IMG/VR virus record: IMGVR_UViG_3300009161_000215
Span: 1-25,022 of that record
Reading direction: 5' to 3' (one strand)
Origin: a virus
DNA length: 25,022 nucleotides
In this document: positions 1,684 to 22,788 of the stretch, piece after piece
Layout: the number at the start of each line of letters is the position of its first letter
Position numbering within the stretch: position 1 is the stretch's first letter
Position numbers and translations under genes: made by a program
The notes under the pieces: generated by a model
What the model saw: only the letters and a program-made list of their open reading frames with translations
Told to the model about the DNA's origin: nothing
The model's database searches: none

Positions 1684-1980
1684 CTACCACGGAATTCCAG
1701 TTGCTGAAACAGGATTTTTAAGTAATTCTATTTGCTGTGCAAGAGATGCTTCTGTTGCATCTTTGTCTACTCCACTAGCCCAAATCCAATCTAATACCTC
1801 AGCCATTGTTACATTAGCATAAGGCACGCTAGGTGTACCATCTGCCCATGAGCAGGTTGAGTATGTAGATGTTTGATACTCGCCATCAACAGCATTACAT
1901 TGCCAATGTGCAGTAGTTATAAAGCCATTTGCAGTCTCATAGTTTGTTTGTGATACATTCCAGTTATATACGATTGCCAT
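1684..1980 (-). CDS. 98-aa conserved phage protein (MAIVYNW family)
   Basis: The protein starts MAIVYNWNVSQTNYETANGF and has HWQCNAVDGEYQTSTYSTCS, a central PSVPYANVTMAEVLDWIW and the ending NPVSATGIPW. This layout (opening MAIVYNW, a 'H W . . . . . DG' core, a 'PY...T...V..W' motif and a C-terminal PW) matches a widespread small family found beside fibre genes in many tailed phages (I believe it is the one called DUF7936). The function is unknown. The start overlaps the fibre stop (TAATG), so it is translated with the fibre. It may help attach or fold the fibre, but that is only inference. Confidence 0.75.
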   Translation of the reverse strand: MAIVYNWNVSQTNYETANGFITTAHWQCNAVDGEYQTSTYSTCSWADGTPSVPYANVTMAEVLDWIWASGVDKDATEASLAQQIELLKNPVSATGIPW

Positions 1981-4900
1981 TATTTATTCTCCAATGCTGT
2001 TAGTCGGGTTGTTAATGATTCTATTAATGCACTCATTTCTTGTATGGCTTTTACATACAAAACACACATATTTTGATATTTCAAACTATCAGGAACTTGT
2101 TGCCCATTAATCTCTTTATAAATAACAAAATCTTTTAAACCGAGTGCATCAATTTCTTCAGCAATAAATCCCGCATTTATTGGTTCATCTGCTAAATCTA
2201 CACCCTCATTAATATATTTAAAACTAACAGGTCTAAGTTTATTTATTATTTCTAAACCTTTAGTATAGTTTTCTACATTTGTTTTGTAACGCAACGATGA
2301 TGTATTAGCGTACATTACTCCATTAGCGTTGTACCAAGACAAAACAGCAAATACACCATTAGGGGGAGTACCAAAAGATAAATAACCACTTGTAGTAAGA
2401 GCAAACTGATTAACTGACCCGTTTGTTCCAAAATTAAGAGCATAAGAACCACTTGTTGTAATGCCAGCACCAGAAGTTGCAAGTGAAACATTACCGCTTG
2501 AGTCTATACGCATCCGTTCTGTTGGTGCTGTATCAGTTGTTACACTTCTTGTAGCAAAATATAAATCTGCATATCCTCCTGATGTGGCACTAGTTACTAT
2601 ACTTCCAATAGCACATTGAACATTTGTTGAACCATTGCCACCAAATCCAACTTCATTAACATAGCCAAGATTTCCTGAATTTGCGGCTAAACAAATTAAA
2701 GATTGTCCGATTGCAGTTTTTTGGTCTCCTGCACCACTTCCAACTTGTAATCTTCTTGTGGCAGTTGTAGTTCCTATACCTACATTACCACTAGTGTCAA
2801 TCATTAAATCATGTGCTGACCCAATAGTTGTTCCACCAGTAGCACTTGTTCTTCCAATGCCAAACTCACCACCCACAAGCATATTGTTTGAAATCACCCA
2901 ATTTTTATTAGATATAGAACCAGCCAAAACAATATAATTTCCGTTATTGTTTACATTATTTCCAAAAGTTGCGACCTTTCCAGAATTTTGGTAAACTTGC
3001 AAAACTGCATCAGGACTAGGAGTACCTATACCTAATTTTCCATCAACCTGTAATGTCATTAATCCTGTTGTTGCTGTAGCAAAAGTAAGAGTTCCACTTC
3101 CACTTCCACCTGAAGTAAACAAAGAAAAGCCATCACCTTGATGTCCAAGAACTAACTCAGATGCACTACCTGAATTATTAGTACCAATAAATAAAGTTGA
3201 TGGTCTACTATTTACAGCAGTAGGACTTTGATTGTTTATTGATACTATTCCATCACTAGTAATACGCATCCGTTCTGAATTACCAACATTAAAAGCAACT
3301 GGGACAAAACCACCTGTTGTTCTGTAACTTGCATTAAATGTAAACTTGCTACCATCATATCCAATACCTAAAAGAGTAGTGTTTGCATTTGCTTCTATTT
3401 GTATCCCTGAGAATGCACCTGAATCGTTTAACTGTTTAACAGAAACAATACCACGAGATACTCCTCCTGTTGTTGGGACAGTCGTAGTTCCTACAAGTAA
3501 CGAACCACTAGAGTCTATACGCATACCTTCAGAATCATTGCCATAAGTAAATACAACTTCACCAGCACCACCATTAACAGTTCCTCTACTACCAATTCTC
3601 ATGCCAAAATTTGCCCATTGCATTACTTGACCAAAACCATAATAATTTTTAGCAACAAAACTTGCATTAAAATCCCCACCTGATGTACCTGTGCTTTGAA
3701 TAAGAACCATGCCTGTATCAGCACTTCCACCATATCCATTATTACCTTGCGCACTTAGAACATGAACTTGTGCAATAGCACTACTAGTACCTACTAATAA
3801 ATTACCAGCACTAGTAATTCTAACTTTTTCTCCATCGTTATACTCAAAAGTAAAAGCCTCGGTTGAGCCTTCCATTGTCAAATCCCACCAATTACCAGCA
3901 CCTGCGTTTTGGCGAAAGCGACTAATCAAATCTTTGGCTGCGTTTGCATTAGTAAGTTGAATAAGCGTGTTTGATGTGCTTGAAGCGGATAAATTTAATG
4001 GTGAATTACTTGGGGATAAAATACTTAATACATTTGTATCCCAAGTCAAATTAGCACTATCTGTTAATAATCCACTAGCACCTGCAAATGTTACTCGACC
4101 ACTTGTTAATGCACTATTCTTAATAGAACTTGTAGTTAGAAATGAGCCATCCCATGTTAGACCTGATGAACCACCTAATACTCCACTATTATTAAATTGA
4201 ACTTGTGTATTGCTTCCACCGATAGTAGGAGTAGTTCCTGAGTAACCTGAATAGCCCGATATGCCTGAGAACCCTGAGTAGCCTGATACACCACTTCCAC
4301 TATAGCCCGATATGCCCGAATAGCCTGAGAAGCCTGATGCACCATCTATTCCTGAGTAACCACTATAGCCTGAAATCCCTGAGAAACCTGATGCACCATT
4401 TATGCCTGAGATGCCTGAGTAGCCTGAGTAGCCTGAGTATCCTGATGTGCCATCCTGTCCTGAGATACCTGAGTACCCTGAGTAACCCGATGTTCCTGAA
4501 TAACCCGATGCACCATTTTCTCCTGAAATTCCACTTGCACCTGAGTAGCCTGATATACCTGACCATCCTGAAATTCCACTAGCACCTGATATTCCCGACC
4601 ATCCTGAAATTCCTGAAAACCCCGAATACCCTGAGTAGCCAGATGTTCCACTTACCCCTGCTGTAATGGCTAAAAATAAAGGATGATTGTCTGCAAAATC
4701 AGTTGTGCCTGTGCCACCTGAAGATATAAGACTAACTGGTACTGTCCAATAACTATTACTTGTATTTGGATTTATGTTTGTAGGTGTACCAGTTATTAAC
4801 CATGACTGATAATTACCTGATACATTTTGGTCTTGAATAGTAAACTTTTGTGTAGGTTGTAACAATGCTAAAAATATATCAATATCGTCACCATTGTTGG

Positions 4901-5999
4901 TCATGTGATTAATATTTATTTGTGTAGCATTACTTTGTGTTGCAGTATTCCAAAGTAAAAATCCAGTTGCAGGTTGTCCACTTGTTTGGACTGCTTCTGC
5001 ATAATATAAAAATAAACTAGATGATTGTCCTATAGCACCCGAATATCCGCTATAGCCTGAAATTCCTGAGAAACCACTCCACCCACTAATTCCTGAGAAG
5101 CCTGATGTGCCAACAGCACCGCTATAGCCTGAGTAACCCGAAGTTCCTGAAAAGCCTGATGCACCATTTTGCCCATTAATTCCTGAAAATCCACTATACC
5201 CACTAATTCCTGAGAAACCTGATTGACCAACAGCACCTGAGTAGCCACTAAATCCTGAGAAACCCGATGAACCATTTTGACCTGAGATTCCTGAATAACC
5301 ACTATAACCACTAATTCCCGAATAGCCTGAGTAACCTGATTCACCACTCCATCCTGAAACACCTGAACCACTATATCCTGATATGCCCGAATATCCGCTA
5401 TATCCTGAGATGCCACTATCTCCACTAAATCCACTTATGCCACTATTGCCACTAAATCCTGATATACCTGAATAGCCCGATTCACCAGACCAACCACTAT
5501 AACCAGAGATTCCACTATCACCACTATATCCTGATACACCACTTCCTGAGTAGCCTGATATACCTGAAAAGCCTGAGTAACCCGATTCCCCTGAGAATCC
5601 TGAGTAACCTGAAAACCCTGATAAACCTTGTGGTCCAACTATCTGACCTGCATCAAACCAAGCAGAGCCATCCCATATCCATAAATCGCCATCAGCAGTT
5701 ACTATGTATGCATCATTAACTTGATTGCCTGTTGGTGGCAAATCTTGAACTGTAGCCACTTCACCTTTGACATTAATACTTGTGCCTTGCTGACCGCTAT
5801 AGCCCGAATAACCGCTTATCCCTGAACCTGAATAGCCACTATAGCCAGAATAGCCAGAGTACCCAGAGTACCCTGAAATCCCTGATATACCCTGTGGTCC
5901 AATTAATCCTCTATCAATATTAATTTTTTGTGTAGGTGTTGGAGTTACTGCAATCTTTACATTGTTCTGGTCAATGACTGTTACATTCATATTGCCCAT
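1980..5999 (-). CDS. Collagen-like tail fibre with S74 self-cleaving chaperone
   Basis: A 1339-aa fibre. Three blocks of Gly-X-Ser triplets (X mostly Tyr, Phe, Ile or Trp) lie at about 31-75, 122-322 and 449-589, separated by compact domains at 76-121 (with GDLWIWDGSAWFDAG) and 323-448. Residues 590-1230 form a beta-rich shaft with repeated ERMRIDSSG-like and GIGT-like modules, common in phage fibres. The C-terminus is an S74 intramolecular chaperone: SSLRYKTNV places S1234 and K1239 at the expected five-residue spacing, so autocleavage before S1234 would release about 106 aa after trimer folding. The ribosome-binding site GGAAGG lies eight bases upstream. It should be the main receptor-binding or side fibre; which surface sugar or protein it binds is not shown. 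Confidence 0.92.
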   Translation of the reverse strand: MGNMNVTVIDQNNVKIAVTPTPTQKINIDRGLIGPQGISGISGYSGYSGYSGYSGYSGSGISGYSGYSGQQGTSINVKGEVATVQDLPPTGNQVNDAYIVTADGDLWIWDGSAWFDAGQIVGPQGLSGFSGYSGFSGESGYSGFSGISGYSGSGVSGYSGDSGISGYSGWSGESGYSGISGFSGNSGISGFSGDSGISGYSGYSGISGYSGSGVSGWSGESGYSGYSGISGYSGYSGISGQNGSSGFSGFSGYSGAVGQSGFSGISGYSGFSGINGQNGASGFSGTSGYSGYSGAVGTSGFSGISGWSGFSGISGYSGYSGAIGQSSSLFLYYAEAVQTSGQPATGFLLWNTATQSNATQININHMTNNGDDIDIFLALLQPTQKFTIQDQNVSGNYQSWLITGTPTNINPNTSNSYWTVPVSLISSGGTGTTDFADNHPLFLAITAGVSGTSGYSGYSGFSGISGWSGISGASGISGWSGISGYSGASGISGENGASGYSGTSGYSGYSGISGQDGTSGYSGYSGYSGISGINGASGFSGISGYSGYSGIDGASGFSGYSGISGYSGSGVSGYSGFSGISGYSGYSGTTPTIGGSNTQVQFNNSGVLGGSSGLTWDGSFLTTSSIKNSALTSGRVTFAGASGLLTDSANLTWDTNVLSILSPSNSPLNLSASSTSNTLIQLTNANAAKDLISRFRQNAGAGNWWDLTMEGSTEAFTFEYNDGEKVRITSAGNLLVGTSSAIAQVHVLSAQGNNGYGGSADTGMVLIQSTGTSGGDFNASFVAKNYYGFGQVMQWANFGMRIGSRGTVNGGAGEVVFTYGNDSEGMRIDSSGSLLVGTTTVPTTGGVSRGIVSVKQLNDSGAFSGIQIEANANTTLLGIGYDGSKFTFNASYRTTGGFVPVAFNVGNSERMRITSDGIVSINNQSPTAVNSRPSTLFIGTNNSGSASELVLGHQGDGFSLFTSGGSGSGTLTFATATTGLMTLQVDGKLGIGTPSPDAVLQVYQNSGKVATFGNNVNNNGNYIVLAGSISNKNWVISNNMLVGGEFGIGRTSATGGTTIGSAHDLMIDTSGNVGIGTTTATRRLQVGSGAGDQKTAIGQSLICLAANSGNLGYVNEVGFGGNGSTNVQCAIGSIVTSATSGGYADLYFATRSVTTDTAPTERMRIDSSGNVSLATSGAGITTSGSYALNFGTNGSVNQFALTTSGYLSFGTPPNGVFAVLSWYNANGVMYANTSSLRYKTNVENYTKGLEIINKLRPVSFKYINEGVDLADEPINAGFIAEEIDALGLKDFVIYKEINGQQVPDSLKYQNMCVLYVKAIQEMSALIESLTTRLTALENK
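4233..4655 (-). repeat. Collagen-like repeat block 3 of the fibre
   Basis: Residues 449-589. The units include GWSGISG, GASG and GENG, with one GSGVSG step near the end. The block leads into the TPTIGGSNTQVQFNNSG segment, which begins the beta-shaft. Confidence 0.85.
5034..5636 (-). repeat. Collagen-like repeat block 2 of the fibre
   Basis: This is the longest triplet block (residues 122-322). It starts GPQGLSGFSGYSGFSG and has about 65 Gly-X-Y units, with X often aromatic, occasional GES, GDS or GNS units, two GSGVSG register steps, and GAVG or GQNG units. Confidence 0.85.
5775..5909 (-). repeat. Collagen-like repeat block 1 of the fibre
   Basis: This stretch encodes GLIGPQGISGISGYSGYSG and continues as Gly-Tyr-Ser triplets (residues 31-75). 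A GSG step (one residue short of a triplet) interrupts the register near residues 60-63. Confidence 0.85.
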
Positions 6000-17145: not shown

Positions 17146-17811
17146 TTACATCACCAAAGGTTTATATGGTCTTAATAATTGTGATACTCCAAAAGGAATA
17201 TTAGTTAATCTTCCATCTAAAGTATCGCTTCGATTGTTATATAAATGAGTTAATAATAATAATCCTGCCTGTTTAATTACAGGATAAGTTCCAATAGGAT
17301 TAGAATTTAATGAATAAATAACTACAACAGGGTTAGTCATAAAAGCATTAATATCATTTGGCAATGAATTAATAACTATTTTATTTCCTGTTGGGTCATA
17401 AAAATATTCTGTACTTGCAATAGTAGTTAATACTGGTGGAGTATCCATGTTGTAATACTTTACATAATCAATGGTTACTCCAGTTGAATTATTTGTGTCC
17501 TGAGATATTTCTGGCAAATCCAAGGATGTTTGCATCCCCATAGAATTGTTTGTAGCCTGATAGTAGGCTTTATATTGCACAGGTAATATTGACATACCAA
17601 GGTAATCTTCTATAGCCATCCTAGTGGCTAATTCAAGGCTTTTTAAATAAGTATCTTGTGATTCATCTTCAATTAAATTTAACTGTTGAGTTATTTCATC
17701 CAAAGTAAGCCAAGCAGTATAAATATCTCTATCTATCTGCTCGACCTTCTGGTAACTCCAAGGGTTCTGTGGAGAACCTAAAGCATTAGTTGTTGATAAA
17801 TTTGAAGGCAT
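17146..17811 (-). CDS. Head-tail connector (gp6 / phiE125 gp8-like)
   Basis: A 221-aa adaptor expected to form a ring below the portal. The N-terminal region LTLDEITQQLNLIEDESQD followed by a helix with LELATRMAIEDYLGMSI is the usual start of the gp6-like/phiE125 gp8 connector family: a helical bundle in which short helices carry 'I...L.DYLG'. The middle and C-terminal parts include beta-rich stretches and a helix ending QLLRPYKPLVM. It starts inside the MCP2 stop codon (TAATG), so its translation is probably coupled to MCP2. Its position directly after the capsid genes and before the closure protein fits the neck role. Confidence 0.8.
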   Translation of the reverse strand: MPSNLSTTNALGSPQNPWSYQKVEQIDRDIYTAWLTLDEITQQLNLIEDESQDTYLKSLELATRMAIEDYLGMSILPVQYKAYYQATNNSMGMQTSLDLPEISQDTNNSTGVTIDYVKYYNMDTPPVLTTIASTEYFYDPTGNKIVINSLPNDINAFMTNPVVVIYSLNSNPIGTYPVIKQAGLLLLTHLYNNRSDTLDGRLTNIPFGVSQLLRPYKPLVM

Positions 17812-19058
17812 TAACTAGCCGCCATTGTCAAACAAACTCCTGCAAAAACATCACGAATTGTAGAACATACTCTTTTCTCAGCAAACAGGGTTACAAAACC
17901 TACGCTTGTTTGTTCAAACATCTGTAATTTCATTACTTCATTATCAGCAATAGAAATAAATCTTTCCCAATCTGCTAAATAAATAGGTGTTGTAGATGCT
18001 CCAATTTCAGGCATATATGGATTAGCAATAACTTCATGTCCAAACATATTACCTACAGCAGAACCTTCTGAACTACCAACTTCCACAAATACTGGCATAC
18101 CATTTTGAGAAGTAAGTTCACGAACTGCTTTAATTGTTGTAGGATGCATCATCCAACAAGTTGTATCATAGTTCCAATATTGTGCAGGTAAGGCTGATGC
18201 CAAGGCTACTAAATTATTATAGGTAATTGCACTAGCACTTCCACTATCTACTTTTAAAACAGTATGTATTCCATTACTTATTGCTATGCCACTACTTCCA
18301 AAACTAGCGGCACTTGCACTTTTAGAATAACTGTTAATTCCTCTTAATCCCAATGTGCCACCATAGTAACCAGTTAAAGAACCTGACTGGTCATTATTAA
18401 GCATCATAGATAAGGCTTCTTGTTGAGCAAATTCTTTTGCAATATCTTCTACAATAGCCTGTTCAATAGCATTAACATCATCCATAAATGCTGTACGAAT
18501 TGGCACACTTGCCTGAATTGCTCTCATAGGTAATTGCCAGATAGCAGTATTTAAACCTGTAACAGCATTATTGTTGTTAATAGGATAATATCCCCAAGGA
18601 TTACCCAAAGCAGTAATTGTTGTAGATGATGCCGTAGTATCACCCACAACATTATATGTCCCTGTTGCACCTGTACCAGTTCCTAATGAGGATATATAAG
18701 TTCCTGCCGTAACTCCTGTACCTGAAAGTATTTGACCAACTCTTAGCACTCCACTTGCTACTGCTGTTACTGTCATTACTGATGCAGTTATAGATGCAGT
18801 TACTACAGCACCATTTTGAATGTTTGTAATGTTTCCTGTTTTGGCTACAAACTGCACATCTGAATCAGCAGTTGTAAATTGTCTTGCATATTTACGAATA
18901 GGATTACCCATTCGCAATGAAGCAAAGGCATCATCATAATATATACGACCACCAATTCCTGAACCAGAGCCTGTTAAGGCTGATGCTTCTTTTAAATTTA
19001 TTTCTGCTTTGCCATCTTTAATGGCTGACTGTATTGCTTCAAGAATTAGATTTGCCAT
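17811..19058 (-). CDS. Second HK97-fold capsid protein (MCP2) with inserted domain
   Basis: A 415-aa paralogue of MCP1. Shared landmarks run in the same order: [20 protein letters not shown] matches GGRTGYDPVFVALRQTNPLR of MCP1; IWQL, then [10 protein letters not shown] against FPVRTATLDD; NNDQ against QNDDQ; LPAQYW against LPTQYW; and the C-terminal [16 protein letters not shown] against YEQTQVGFITFYGEKR. It lacks the long N-terminal coil (only about 30 residues before the shell domain). It also has an extra segment at 84-152, rich in Gly, Thr and Val, exactly where MCP1 has its short E-loop turn. It follows a terminator-like hairpin, has a weak ribosome-binding site, and its stop overlaps the next start (TAATG). 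It could form pentamers, replace some MCP1 subunits, or display the extra domain on the surface. The capsid fold call is firm; the role is inference. Confidence 0.88.
18603..18809 (-). other. Inserted Gly/Thr-rich beta domain in MCP2 (E-loop position)
   Basis: Residues 84-152 of MCP2, including [20 protein letters not shown] and [12 protein letters not shown], separate two segments that are adjacent in MCP1 (QKVGN and AAWGYAI, against AKTGN and PWGYYPI). The pattern [20 protein letters not shown]...GTGTGxxGTYxV resembles a small beta module that I know from many phage structural and fibre proteins. It probably folds independently. Confidence 0.7.
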
Positions 19059-19077
19059 ATATTTATTCCAAATAAGT

Positions 19078-19104
19078 TAAAAAAAGAAGGGGAGATTTCT
19101 CCCC
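19078..19104 (-). terminator. Intrinsic terminator-like hairpin between the two capsid genes
   Basis: On the minus strand, just after the MCP1 stop, the sequence forms a GGGGAG / CTCCCC stem with an AAAT loop (plus strand stem 19089-19094 and 19099-19104) followed by TTCTTTTTTT. This is a good rho-independent terminator shape. Because it lies inside a co-directional structural operon it probably acts partially, letting MCP1 transcripts exceed those of MCP2 and the tail genes, or it protects the 3' end of MCP1 mRNA. It works only in the minus direction: no T-run follows the stem on the other strand. Confidence 0.75.
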
Positions 19105-19111
19105 CACCTCT

Positions 19112-20455
19112 TTAGTCGTTTGCAGTATGTGTACTTCTGTAAGCAACAATAGCATTAGCATCATGGATACTGGATGCAACACGCTTTTCGCCATAGAAAG
19201 TTATAAAACCGACTTGGGTCTGTTCGTACCTTCTTAGAATCATATTCAATCTATCAATGATTACATGACCACGATTGAAATCACCAAAGTACATTGGATA
19301 CAAATCTGCTTTATCTACACCTGCATAGTTTGGAGTATCACAGAACTGATTAACTGTTACATCAAATCCTAGTAATTGTCCAACAATACCATCTGGTCTA
19401 GCCAAACCATCAACATAAATTGGTCTGCCATTATCATCAACCAAACCACGAATTGCCTGTAGTTGGATTGGGTTAATTAACCATGATGTGCTTGGTGTCC
19501 AGTATTGAGTAGGCAAACTATAAATAAGATTGATTACATCAGCATAAGTAATGTTATTTGCAGAAGTAGATGTACCATTTGTAGTTAATTGGTCATATGT
19601 AGCAATCTTAGATAAACCATTTGATGTGGCTACACCAGTTGAGCCATAAACTACTGGATGAACTGTTCCACCTGCAAATGCACCTACATAACCATACTGA
19701 TTTAAACCACGCAAACCATTAGTACCACCAGTTGCATCATATGGAGCAGAATCAGTTTGGTCATCGTTTTGAACCATTGAACGACCTTCTGATTGACTAA
19801 ACTCAGCCAACATATCAGAAACAATGTTTGACTCTAAACCATCAATGTCATCTAAAGTTGCTGTACGAACAGGGAAAGCACAGTTCAAATCTTTAAGGAT
19901 TAACTGCCAAATCAAAGTGTCTTGAGTTGTAGCACCACCATTGTTTTGAATTGCATATCCCCAAGCCGCACCTGCATTTCCAACTTTTTGTCTTAGTTGG
20001 TAAGCAGAACCATCAGTAGATACTGAACGACTTACACCACGCAAAGGATTGGTTTGACGCAAAGCAACAAACACAGGGTCATAGCCTGTACGACCACCCA
20101 CATTGTAACCAGAACCATATCCTTGTGGATTACCTAGCAAAGATGATTCCTGCATAAATGCATCATACTGGTCTACAGATTCAAACATCTTAATTTCTTT
20201 TTCTGTACGACTATTCGATTTATAGAAATCACGAACTTGCTCTTTAACAGAACGATTAACTTCTTCAGTTAAACTTTTATAAGTTTTGATTTGTGCAGGT
20301 GCTTGAACAGAAGCAACTTTGGCTTCTAATGCTTCAAACTTCTCAGACATCTCAGTTAATACTTCTAACTTTGTGTTGATTTCTGCTTTAATTTCTTCAA
20401 TCTTGGCTACTTGTTGGGCTTCGATTGTATCTAGTTTTTCGATAACTTCTTTCAT
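19112..20455 (-). CDS. Major capsid protein 1 (HK97 fold, with N-terminal scaffolding coil)
   Basis: HK97-fold capsid protein, 447 aa. Residues 1-55 are heptad-rich and charged (EKLDTIEAQQVAKIEEIKAE), followed by a charged linker to about 105; together these match the delta (scaffolding) domain removed by the prohead protease in HK97 relatives. The mature shell part begins near SLLGNPQGYGSGYNVGGRTG. An E-loop-like hairpin lies at about 150-180 (QLRQKVGNAGAAWGYAIQNN), the spine-helix region near DDIDGLESNIVSDMLAEF, and the conserved C-terminus is RRYEQTQVGFITFYGEKR. It has a strong AGGAG site and is followed by a terminator-like hairpin, as expected for the most abundant virion protein. The next gene encodes a paralogue. 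Confidence 0.93.
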   Translation of the reverse strand: MKEVIEKLDTIEAQQVAKIEEIKAEINTKLEVLTEMSEKFEALEAKVASVQAPAQIKTYKSLTEEVNRSVKEQVRDFYKSNSRTEKEIKMFESVDQYDAFMQESSLLGNPQGYGSGYNVGGRTGYDPVFVALRQTNPLRGVSRSVSTDGSAYQLRQKVGNAGAAWGYAIQNNGGATTQDTLIWQLILKDLNCAFPVRTATLDDIDGLESNIVSDMLAEFSQSEGRSMVQNDDQTDSAPYDATGGTNGLRGLNQYGYVGAFAGGTVHPVVYGSTGVATSNGLSKIATYDQLTTNGTSTSANNITYADVINLIYSLPTQYWTPSTSWLINPIQLQAIRGLVDDNGRPIYVDGLARPDGIVGQLLGFDVTVNQFCDTPNYAGVDKADLYPMYFGDFNRGHVIIDRLNMILRRYEQTQVGFITFYGEKRVASSIHDANAIVAYRSTHTAND

Positions 20456-20461
20456 CTTGAA

Positions 20462-20466
20462 CTCCT
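20462..20466 (-). promoter_or_regulatory. Strong Shine-Dalgarno site for MCP1
   Basis: The minus strand reads AAATAGGAGTTCAAGATG. A full AGGAG lies six bases before the MCP1 ATG at 20455 and overlaps the protease stop codon TAG. This is the clearest ribosome-binding site among the head genes and contrasts with the weak GGA, nine bases from the start, that precedes MCP2. Confidence 0.75.
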
Positions 20467-21262
20467 ATTTATTAATGCGATTAGATAATGCCTTTAATAA
20501 TTCTCTTTCCTCTAGGGCTTTTAAAATATTATTGGCTTCTGGTTCTACGGCATCATTATCACAATGCTCCGTTTTTTTCTTAATCAATTCTGAAGATACA
20601 TCACGCATCTCTAAAACTTTTTTAAGAATAGAAGATGCCGTAGTTGCATCTTTTTTGGAAAGCCCTGCATCACGCAAAGTTCTCTCAATTAGTCTAGGAT
20701 TGGCATTGCCATCCTTATCAAAATATTCTAATCTTTGGATTTCAGCATTTGGGTTATTCGGGTACATAACAACTGAAACTTCTCTAAGACCACCTTTAGT
20801 AATTTGGAAATAGCCTTCATCTTCATCATCCCCTATTGGATTGCCTTGCTCATCCACCATTCTGGCTTCATCAGCATATGCTCCTACAGATACTCCACCA
20901 AACATATTAGGTGCTTCTTTTAATACAGAATACAAATCAGAACCACCAACAGTATTCATGTAAATTTTACCTTTGGCAGACATACCATCATCTTCCATAA
21001 TAAATTCATCCCATTGTCCTACTGGCATACCCATATCGTTATGGTTTAAAAACATTGGTAATGGTTTACCTGCATTGGCAAACTCATCTGCCCATTGTGC
21101 AAAACCTTCAGGTTTATAAAAGAACTTTCTGCCATCTGCTCCTTCTCTAGGTCCAAATGTAGTCACTTTGGCTTCAATCATCCCAGATGGGTTTTCACCT
21201 TCATCTGCCATTTTTCCTAGTGATAATTTTGCTTCACAGATTAGATTTAGGTTTTGTTTCAT
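20465..21262 (-). CDS. Prohead maturation protease (HK97 gp4-like)
   Basis: A serine protease that acts inside the procapsid, cleaving the scaffolding segment of the capsid protein and itself. At 265 aa it is slightly longer than HK97 gp4. The expected catalytic residues are visible: H74 in FLNHND, S125 in GGVSVGAYA, and a likely third residue E161 in GGLREVSVVMYPNNPNA, a stretch typical of this family. The charged, helical C-terminal third (about 185-265) resembles the part usually removed during maturation. The start ATG at 21262 has GGGG eight to nine bases upstream. It sits directly before the capsid gene that carries a delta-like N-terminal coil, its probable substrate. Confidence 0.9.
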   Translation of the reverse strand: MKQNLNLICEAKLSLGKMADEGENPSGMIEAKVTTFGPREGADGRKFFYKPEGFAQWADEFANAGKPLPMFLNHNDMGMPVGQWDEFIMEDDGMSAKGKIYMNTVGGSDLYSVLKEAPNMFGGVSVGAYADEARMVDEQGNPIGDDEDEGYFQITKGGLREVSVVMYPNNPNAEIQRLEYFDKDGNANPRLIERTLRDAGLSKKDATTASSILKKVLEMRDVSSELIKKKTEHCDNDAVEPEANNILKALEERELLKALSNRINK

Positions 21263-21401
21263 TTATAACCCCATAGTTAATCGCTTGATTGTTATCTTGT
21301 ATTATAGGGGTATCTTGTTCTTTTAAAGGTAGTTTAACACTAACCTTTTTGATTTGGTTAAATAATACATCATTTATTCTTTTTAATAAACTATTTTCCA
21401 A
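21234..21401 (-). CDS. Possible 55-aa protein between portal and protease
   Basis: The 128-base gap between portal and protease is the largest in the window. It is spanned by a frame that starts with TTG at 21401, overlaps the last bases of the portal gene, and ends with TGA at 21234, inside the protease gene. The predicted product is 55 aa, beginning MENSLLKRINDVLFNQIKKV, which could be an amphipathic helix, with a polar tail. No ATG exists in this frame and I see only a weak purine stretch (GGAAAA) upstream. I do not recognise a family. It may be a translationally coupled small head protein or only a chance open frame in AT-rich DNA. Confidence 0.35.
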   Translation of the reverse strand: MENSLLKRINDVLFNQIKKVSVKLPLKEQDTPIIQDNNQAINYGVINETKPKSNL

Positions 21402-22788
21402 TATTCATTTTCCGAGTTTGATTACCGCCACCGCCACCAGTATCTTGTGGGCTTTGTCCACCTATTGCTAATGAATCTTTTAACTTACCACCTAACTCAT
21501 CTCCCCCATCTATTTTAGGTATATTTAAATATTCTCTGGCTTCATTAGGGGTCATAATCCCTGCATTAATACCTGCTACTACAAAATTCATTTGGTCTAG
21601 TGCCGCACCTTTTAAGAAATCTTTAGTATCAAATCGTATGCAAAGATTAGGATAGCCTTTTAATAAACTCATGTTAAGTTTCTGTTCCAAATTTATAATA
21701 GTAGGATACATAGTCGTTTTATAAAACTCATCTAATAATGTCTGAGTATTATTGAACTTACCATCAGATATTCCTAGCATTTGTGGTGGTACACCAAACA
21801 AAGCACAGATTCGCTTCATGGTCTGGTCTTTTAATGCTCTTGCATCTGCATCCTGAAGGTTTAAAACTGGCACAGTCTCATAGGTCATACCTTGGTCTAA
21901 TAACATTCCCTGACCTGCTTTGCTCAAATCTGAAGGCTTACTATTAGTCATATTCGCCCATGCTTCCTTGAGCCTTCCTGCTACTTCTTTATACTTAGCA
22001 TCTGGGATTACCTGTTCTGTTCTAAATAGTCCAGATGGTTTTGCACCATTCTGCATAATAAAGTTAGCATATAGGTCAATGTCTTGGTCTAGGGCTACTA
22101 GTTCTGTGGCTAAGATACCTTTGTTAAAACCTGCCGCACCTTGCCAGTTCTGGTCCATTAAATGAATAACTTGATAAGGTTCTAAAGGTTCATTCTCATT
22201 AAATCCCATGCTCGATGTTGATAACCTATAAGAAGGGTATCTTAATGGAGTTAGTTGAGAAGTAATTAAGGTACTGTCTAGGTTATAGGCTTCGATAGGA
22301 GTAAGACTAGGATTAGTCTGGTCTTTTCTCCAGAGCAATGTATATGTTTCACCAGTTAAATCTAACCATTGGGATAACTGATAGAAAAATTCATACTGGC
22401 TTTGGAAACTGTTGGGATTTTGCAAAAGGCTTAATACTTGCCTTGCTTTATTCTTATCTCGCAATCCTGCTTTATCAGATTTCAATGCATCTACAAAAGT
22501 GCCATCTTCTGTTTTGTACATAATGCTAACAGAGCATTGTGCCAAACTTCTGGCTTTAATTGCAACGCAACTCATAACAGTAGAGTTCCTAGATAGGACA
22601 GATACATTAACTGTTCTACCTGCTTCTGTTGTACTTGCTGTAGTTACATAAAGTAATTGATTGTTGCCAACAAAAGAACCTTTATTGCCCTGTAAAGCAA
22701 TTTGATTACCTAGTTGTTGCTGACCAAATAGGGTATTGGATTCATTTTTTATTGGTTTTTTTCTACTGAAAATGTCTAGTATTCCCAT
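21391..22788 (-). CDS. Portal protein (HK97 family)
   Basis: Twelve copies of the portal form the ring at the unique vertex through which DNA enters and where the neck docks. The 465-aa length fits HK97-type portals. Diagnostic segments are an N-terminal MGILDIFSRKK, the clip/stem region NSTVMSCVAIKARSLAQC, the RICALFGVPPQMLGI motif, and the typical C-terminal AGIMTPNEAREYLNIP followed by a GGDEL turn. The tail end is low-complexity with a run of glycines. The start ATG at 22788 has an AGGGG ribosome-binding site about seven bases upstream. It follows terL by 31 bases, the standard terL-portal-protease order. Confidence 0.95.
   Translation of the reverse strand: MGILDIFSRKKPIKNESNTLFGQQQLGNQIALQGNKGSFVGNNQLLYVTTASTTEAGRTVNVSVLSRNSTVMSCVAIKARSLAQCSVSIMYKTEDGTFVDALKSDKAGLRDKNKARQVLSLLQNPNSFQSQYEFFYQLSQWLDLTGETYTLLWRKDQTNPSLTPIEAYNLDSTLITSQLTPLRYPSYRLSTSSMGFNENEPLEPYQVIHLMDQNWQGAAGFNKGILATELVALDQDIDLYANFIMQNGAKPSGLFRTEQVIPDAKYKEVAGRLKEAWANMTNSKPSDLSKAGQGMLLDQGMTYETVPVLNLQDADARALKDQTMKRICALFGVPPQMLGISDGKFNNTQTLLDEFYKTTMYPTIINLEQKLNMSLLKGYPNLCIRFDTKDFLKGAALDQMNFVVAGINAGIMTPNEAREYLNIPKIDGGDELGGKLKDSLAIGGQSPQDTGGGGGNQTRKMNIGK

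Follow-up and report, generated by a model that had tools for sequence, protein, structure and literature searches.

The window, a stretch of 25,022 bases that makes up a whole IMG/VR record, carries its late genes on the minus strand. They follow the order small terminase, large terminase, portal, S78 protease, MCP1, MCP2, gp6-like adaptor and tail genes. The portal protein (21391..22788, minus strand; PF04860, E 4.3e-56) and the prohead protease of the S78 family (20465..21262, minus strand; PF04586, E 7.4e-7) are followed by two capsid genes. The first encodes MCP1, the major HK97-fold capsid protein with an N-terminal delta (scaffold) region (19112..20455, minus strand; 447 aa; PF05065, E 7.6e-34). 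The second encodes MCP2, another HK97-fold capsid protein, which is without the delta region and is the proposed vertex protein (17811..19058, minus strand; 415 aa; PF05065, E 8.6e-23). Both are assigned to major head protein in PHROG. The gene for the gp6-like head-tail adaptor (17146..17811, minus strand; PF05135, E 2.6e-5; PHROG Ad1) lies directly after MCP2. The original prediction had placed two adjacent HK97-fold capsid genes here, and both are found at these coordinates as intact open reading frames.

The tail part of the window, on the same strand, contains several genes of separate interest. A gene for a GNAT-type acetyltransferase (PF00583; 10538-10990) lies within the tail gene cluster. 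The tail fibre (1980-5999; 1339 aa) has long GYSGYSG/GISG collagen-like repeats (PF01391, 8 stretches) and an S74 chaperone domain at its C-terminus. Directly after the fibre gene comes a gene for a small DUF7936 (PF25590) protein (1684-1980), and a small methyltransferase gene (926-1507) is found after the tail-fibre genes.

Paralogy and architecture of the two capsid proteins

MCP1 and MCP2 had been regarded as paralogues because they have the same chain of motifs, and this has been confirmed by three comparisons. In BLASTP, the proteins are 37% identical over 279 aa (E 2e-55), and a further stretch of 47 aa is 45% identical. The profiles of the two families align over 317 columns (E 1.2e-84), which together with the BLASTP identity rules out a chance resemblance of motifs. 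In addition, 51 columns, with E-loop and core residues among them, are conserved within each family and have the same residue in MCP1 and MCP2. The PF05065 scores of the two proteins (81.5 and 117.8 bits) are above the curated cut-off of 24.2, so both are members of this family.

Structure prediction of both proteins, which had been suggested as a check, gave a weaker model for MCP1 than for MCP2. The AF2 model of MCP2 (pLDDT 74.8) has the capsid protein of RcGTA as its best match, with Z 23.6 and an rmsd of 5.5 over 272 residues, and MCP2 can be described as having an RcGTA-type capsid fold. The model of MCP1 is poor (pLDDT 55.6; Z 11.9 over 151 residues), and its HK97 fold gains support from the match of MCP1 to the RcGTA capsid by sequence (E 1.2e-11).

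The main difference between the two proteins is found at the N-terminus. Residues 1-103 of MCP1 (20147..20455, minus strand) form a predicted helical delta or scaffold region, with helices modelled at residues 2-48, 62-79 and 94-105, all at low pLDDT. The alignment with the MCP2 profile begins at MCP1 column 102, so that the roughly 100 helical residues have no counterpart in MCP2, in line with the N-terminal coil predicted for MCP1 only. The core of MCP1 starts at residues 102-122 (20090..20152, minus strand) with a 15-residue consensus derived from 45-46 MCP1 sequences, which is a putative protease-processing segment. MCP2 is more than a bare core, and begins with a short stub of about 22 aa (residues 1-23; 18990..19058, minus strand), the start of which is conserved in relatives. 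This stub is followed by 13 residues that equal the MCP1 family consensus at the core start, within a 16-residue stretch (residues 23-38; 18945..18992, minus strand) that is identified as the same segment by profile alignment and consensus.

MCP2 has also gained parts of its own. An extra beta module is present in its E-loop (residues 77-152; 18603..18830, minus strand), where 76 residues lie between the flanking motifs. This module of about 70 aa is typical of the window's subclade, while most other MCP2 proteins have 5-10 residues between these motifs. It occurs in 12 of the 44 MCP2 representatives that could be scored, which the MCP2 tree explains by two to three changes, according to how these are counted. 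The module resembles portions of phage tail-fibre families in PHROG. A tblastn search for it in cultured phages gave no match, perhaps as a result of the low-complexity filter, since PHROGs does match the module. Closely related MCP1 proteins are paired with MCP2 proteins that either have the module (L014) or are without it (L090); between these two loci, dN is 0.054 in MCP1 and 0.231 in MCP2. An N-terminal module is found on MCP2 in 3 of 46 representatives, in the form of a phrog_2859 domain (L050:5689-6012, L055:5686-6012 and L064:5686-6012). Elsewhere, phrog_2859 is located near the start of annotated major capsid proteins (S-CBS1, CRP-811) and within the capsid maturation protease of DSL-LC01.

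Modules such as these could be displayed, which would suit a surface or decoration protein. In seven more distant phages with a single MCP, D14E and VW-6S among them, the capsid gene is followed by a small gene and not by a second capsid gene, and MCP2 could then occupy the slot of this small gene. However, MCP2 retains the entire HK97 fold and the residues conserved in the core, rather than being a reduced binding domain, and it keeps the MCP1-like pro-segment. A decoration role is therefore considered distinctly improbable.

Conservation of the pair among relatives

Two scans of IMG/VR resulted in about 150 loci, with relatives taken as the closest 80 per query. A total of 71 loci were selected by MCP1 alone, of which six end too soon to count; the remaining 65 have at least 400 nt beyond MCP1, and MCP2 is present in all 65. 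The same pair, in the same order, is found in the cultured freshwater Methylophilaceae phage P19250A (genes 0005 and 0006), where the second capsid gene is annotated as 'hypothetical protein' and encodes an MCP2 of 352 aa without the E-loop module. Related genomes, which had been proposed as a place to look, thus contain the pair throughout the testable loci as well as in a cultured phage. In the cultured-phage collection, 81 records match MCP1, at 82 places in all. A second place is known only for P19250A, and this is the only record there with its MCP2.

Methylophilales phage Venkman (L153, MT375522) has been described as similar to and syntenic with P19250A (PMC8163748). Its head module is annotated as portal, scaffold and MCP and differs from the module with the pair; no match of Venkman to either MCP1 or MCP2 was found. 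Tandem PF05065 genes were also sought in 274 and 398 bacterial genomes; no second intact neighbour turned up, but this survey also missed the known second copy in G003 and is no evidence of rarity. In G568 (C90:252646-255598), two short C-terminal capsid fragments lie one after the other behind a full PF05065 gene.

A tree of 46 pairs separates every MCP1 from every MCP2 protein, in two groups with full support, which points to one old split that predates the group and was followed by joint inheritance. A recent duplication in this contig is ruled out, as the split is common to all relatives. The median pairwise dN/dS is 0.10 for MCP1 and 0.13 for MCP2 (115 comparisons), indicating that MCP2 is maintained by selection. 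Mean column identity is 51% for MCP2 versus 69% for MCP1. Split reading frames were observed for MCP2 in L006 (1682-2932) and for MCP1 in L072 (312-1672), and are probably assembly errors or frameshifts.

The lower conservation of MCP2 and its split frame in L006 could be read as signs of a redundant, decaying duplicate without a function in the virion, an outcome against which the original prediction had to be weighed. The MCP1 of L072 is split just like the MCP2 of L006, so these breaks may be assembly errors. With the low dN/dS and the pair conserved in every testable locus, the decaying duplicate is rejected, and we consider it very improbable indeed.

Conservation in the head operon also bears on the idea that MCP2 modifies the size or shape of the head, with its incorporation selecting one capsid geometry. 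There is precedent for this in SaPIbov5, where Ccm, which is homologous to the capsid protein but has a shorter delta domain, makes up the pentamers and the hexamers consist of CP (PMC8569155); MCP2 is without the delta region. However, MCP2 is part of the phage's head operon in every testable relative, and there is no second genome for it to serve. MCP2 as a size modifier is for this reason quite unlikely. MCP2 could, however, set size by forming vertices, in which case this reading merges with the vertex reading.

Signals of unequal expression

A terminator-like hairpin with a T-run is located between MCP1 and MCP2 (19083..19110, minus strand). Of 87 pairs, 83 have a GC-rich hairpin followed by T in this intergenic stretch, compared with 0.8% of mononucleotide shuffles. 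Over 477 kb from 46 loci, 44 of the 62 strong hairpin sites on the sense strand fall in the gap between MCP1 and MCP2. Compensatory changes, in which both sides have changed and pairing is kept, were observed for four of the five consensus pairs. The hairpin of the window itself has a z of only -1.45 versus dinucleotide shuffles, and the weight of this evidence consequently rests on the family. Single-MCP phages, too, tend to carry a hairpin behind the capsid gene, which passes the same score in two of seven. The hairpin may therefore be older than the arrangement with MCP2, as a feature of this position that MCP2 came to lie behind. Late antitermination could also abolish termination at the putative terminator. 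Promoter-like sites in the region were not above chance.

Translation signals differ between the genes in the same direction. The AGGAG ribosome-binding site of MCP1 (20462..20466, minus strand) has a duplex energy of -6.8, versus -3.3 for MCP2, and the Shine-Dalgarno match is stronger on MCP1 than on MCP2 in 43 of 46 pairs. Within two-fold codon families, C-ending codons make up a share of 0.42 in MCP1, 0.28 in MCP2 and 0.285 in other late genes, with MCP1 above MCP2 in 45 of 46 pairs. The hairpin, the ribosome site and the high-expression codon signature in MCP1 suggest that MCP1 would be the abundant product and MCP2 the minor one.

Bacteriophage T4 was used as a control with a known answer. 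Its genes are in the order portal, protease, scaffold, 23 and 24, a strong terminator-like hairpin is located behind gene 23, and the share of C-ending codons is 0.547 in gene 23 and 0.314 in gene 24.

The hairpin, ribosome-site and codon signals bear on quantity and not on the position in the shell, and a minor amount of MCP2 also fits roles other than the vertex. MCP2 could be a minor subunit within hexamers of MCP1, either scattered randomly or confined to particular sites, for instance beside the portal, and could tune curvature or stability. The same fold and the 51 common conserved positions mean that MCP2 could enter the MCP1 lattice, and such co-assembly fits its minor-expression signals. 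Known capsid paralogues such as T4 gp24 and Ccm, however, form separate pentamers, and we know of no tailed phage that mixes paralogues inside one hexamer. Co-assembly within hexamers is thus considered unlikely.

Proposed division of labour and comparison with known systems

MCP2 very likely functions as a minor subunit of the shell, in one position or another. For the division of labour, the favoured reading is that MCP1 builds the hexamers and MCP2 the pentameric vertices, which we regard as fairly probable. The vertex role is the most likely one because the pair repeats the anatomy of T4 and SaPIbov5, with a presumably abundant protein that has a delta region next to a presumably minor paralogue that does not. 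The idea of a mixed capsid in the original prediction has held up together with the paralogy, and among the roles that it offered for MCP2, the vertex is favoured by indirect evidence, namely the minor-expression signals, the T4-like gene order with terminator and the short pro-segment.

In the proposed mechanism, MCP1 would be made in large amounts, bring its own N-terminal delta scaffold and form hexamers. MCP2, located behind the terminator-like hairpin, with a weaker ribosome site and no scaffold, would be made in smaller amounts and form pentameric vertices like gp24. The S78 protease probably cleaves both proteins at a common ten-residue segment, and this trimming would remove the long delta from MCP1 and the short stub from MCP2. 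From sequence, we infer that MCP2 is present in virions and at the pentamers. If a genome of 37-39 kb means a T=7 head, as we presume, about 360 copies of MCP1 and 55 copies of MCP2 would be expected.

Several points count against the vertex reading. In HK97-type phages with genomes as small as these, hexamers and pentamers normally consist of the same protein. The MCP1 and MCP2 families have different fixed residues in just two columns, which leaves no clear or usable pentamer signature, and hairpins are also present in single-MCP phages. A wider scenario, to which we give somewhat less than even chances, is that this clade evolved a dedicated vertex protein independently of T4, through tandem duplication of a scaffold-fused capsid gene. 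An attenuating terminator would set the supply of hexamer and pentamer proteins, and the vertex protein would be an exchangeable platform on which new modules are acquired in the E-loop and at the N-terminus, with the hexamer protein nearly constant.

Judged from their genes, a large group of small-genome freshwater phages encodes two differing putative shell proteins side by side. T4 is the textbook phage with a separate vertex protein, so the type of arrangement is known, and the small-genome version with the scaffold on one paralogue appears to be undescribed. No description of a second capsid paralogue in siphophages, or of a scaffold fused to one of two, was found in a literature search that covered few subscription journals. 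If the vertex reading is true, a division between vertex and hexamer proteins has evolved on more than one occasion and does not depend on a large prolate head, and a scaffold on one of two shell proteins would be a compact system in which to study how curvature and the choice between hexamer and pentamer are determined. The cultured phage P19250A makes the role of MCP2 directly testable.

The closest solved capsids, by sequence and fold, are those of RcGTA (Rcc01687; 6tb9, 6tsu) and HK97 (gp5). Unlike the two-gene phage described here, these shells use a single capsid protein for hexamers and pentamers. The structural matches also include the two-component family 2B encapsulin shell of Streptomyces lydicus (9bje, 9bix), which is built from two HK97-fold proteins; it is a cellular compartment and no phage head, and its likeness to the MCP pair is structural. 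SaPIbov5 Ccm is related to the phi12 capsid protein as MCP2 is to MCP1, in being a homologue with a reduced delta region. Ccm is, however, satellite-encoded and redirects the capsid of its helper, whereas the gene for MCP2 belongs to the head operon of the phage itself, where it comes immediately after MCP1, and MCP2 is not of this redirecting type.

In T4, the hexamers consist of gp23 and 11 pentamers of gp24, 65 N-terminal residues are lost from gp23 and 10 from gp24, and gp24 is thought to be derived from gp23 via duplication (PMC9958956). As with gp24, MCP2 is a paralogue of the major capsid protein and is encoded adjacent to it. The two systems have in common tandem HK97-fold paralogues after portal and protease, a terminator-like hairpin between them, a contrast in codon use, and a hexamer protein with a long pro-segment next to a vertex protein with a short one, as predicted from sequence for the pair described here. 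They differ in that the scaffold is a separate gene in T4 and is fused to MCP1 here. MCP2 does not belong to the gp23/gp24 sequence family, as a Pfam scan with E up to 0.1 gave PF05065 only. The pair thus represents a siphophage-type head module from a small genome and from a sequence family other than that of T4, in which the vertex position of MCP2 is proposed by analogy with gp24.
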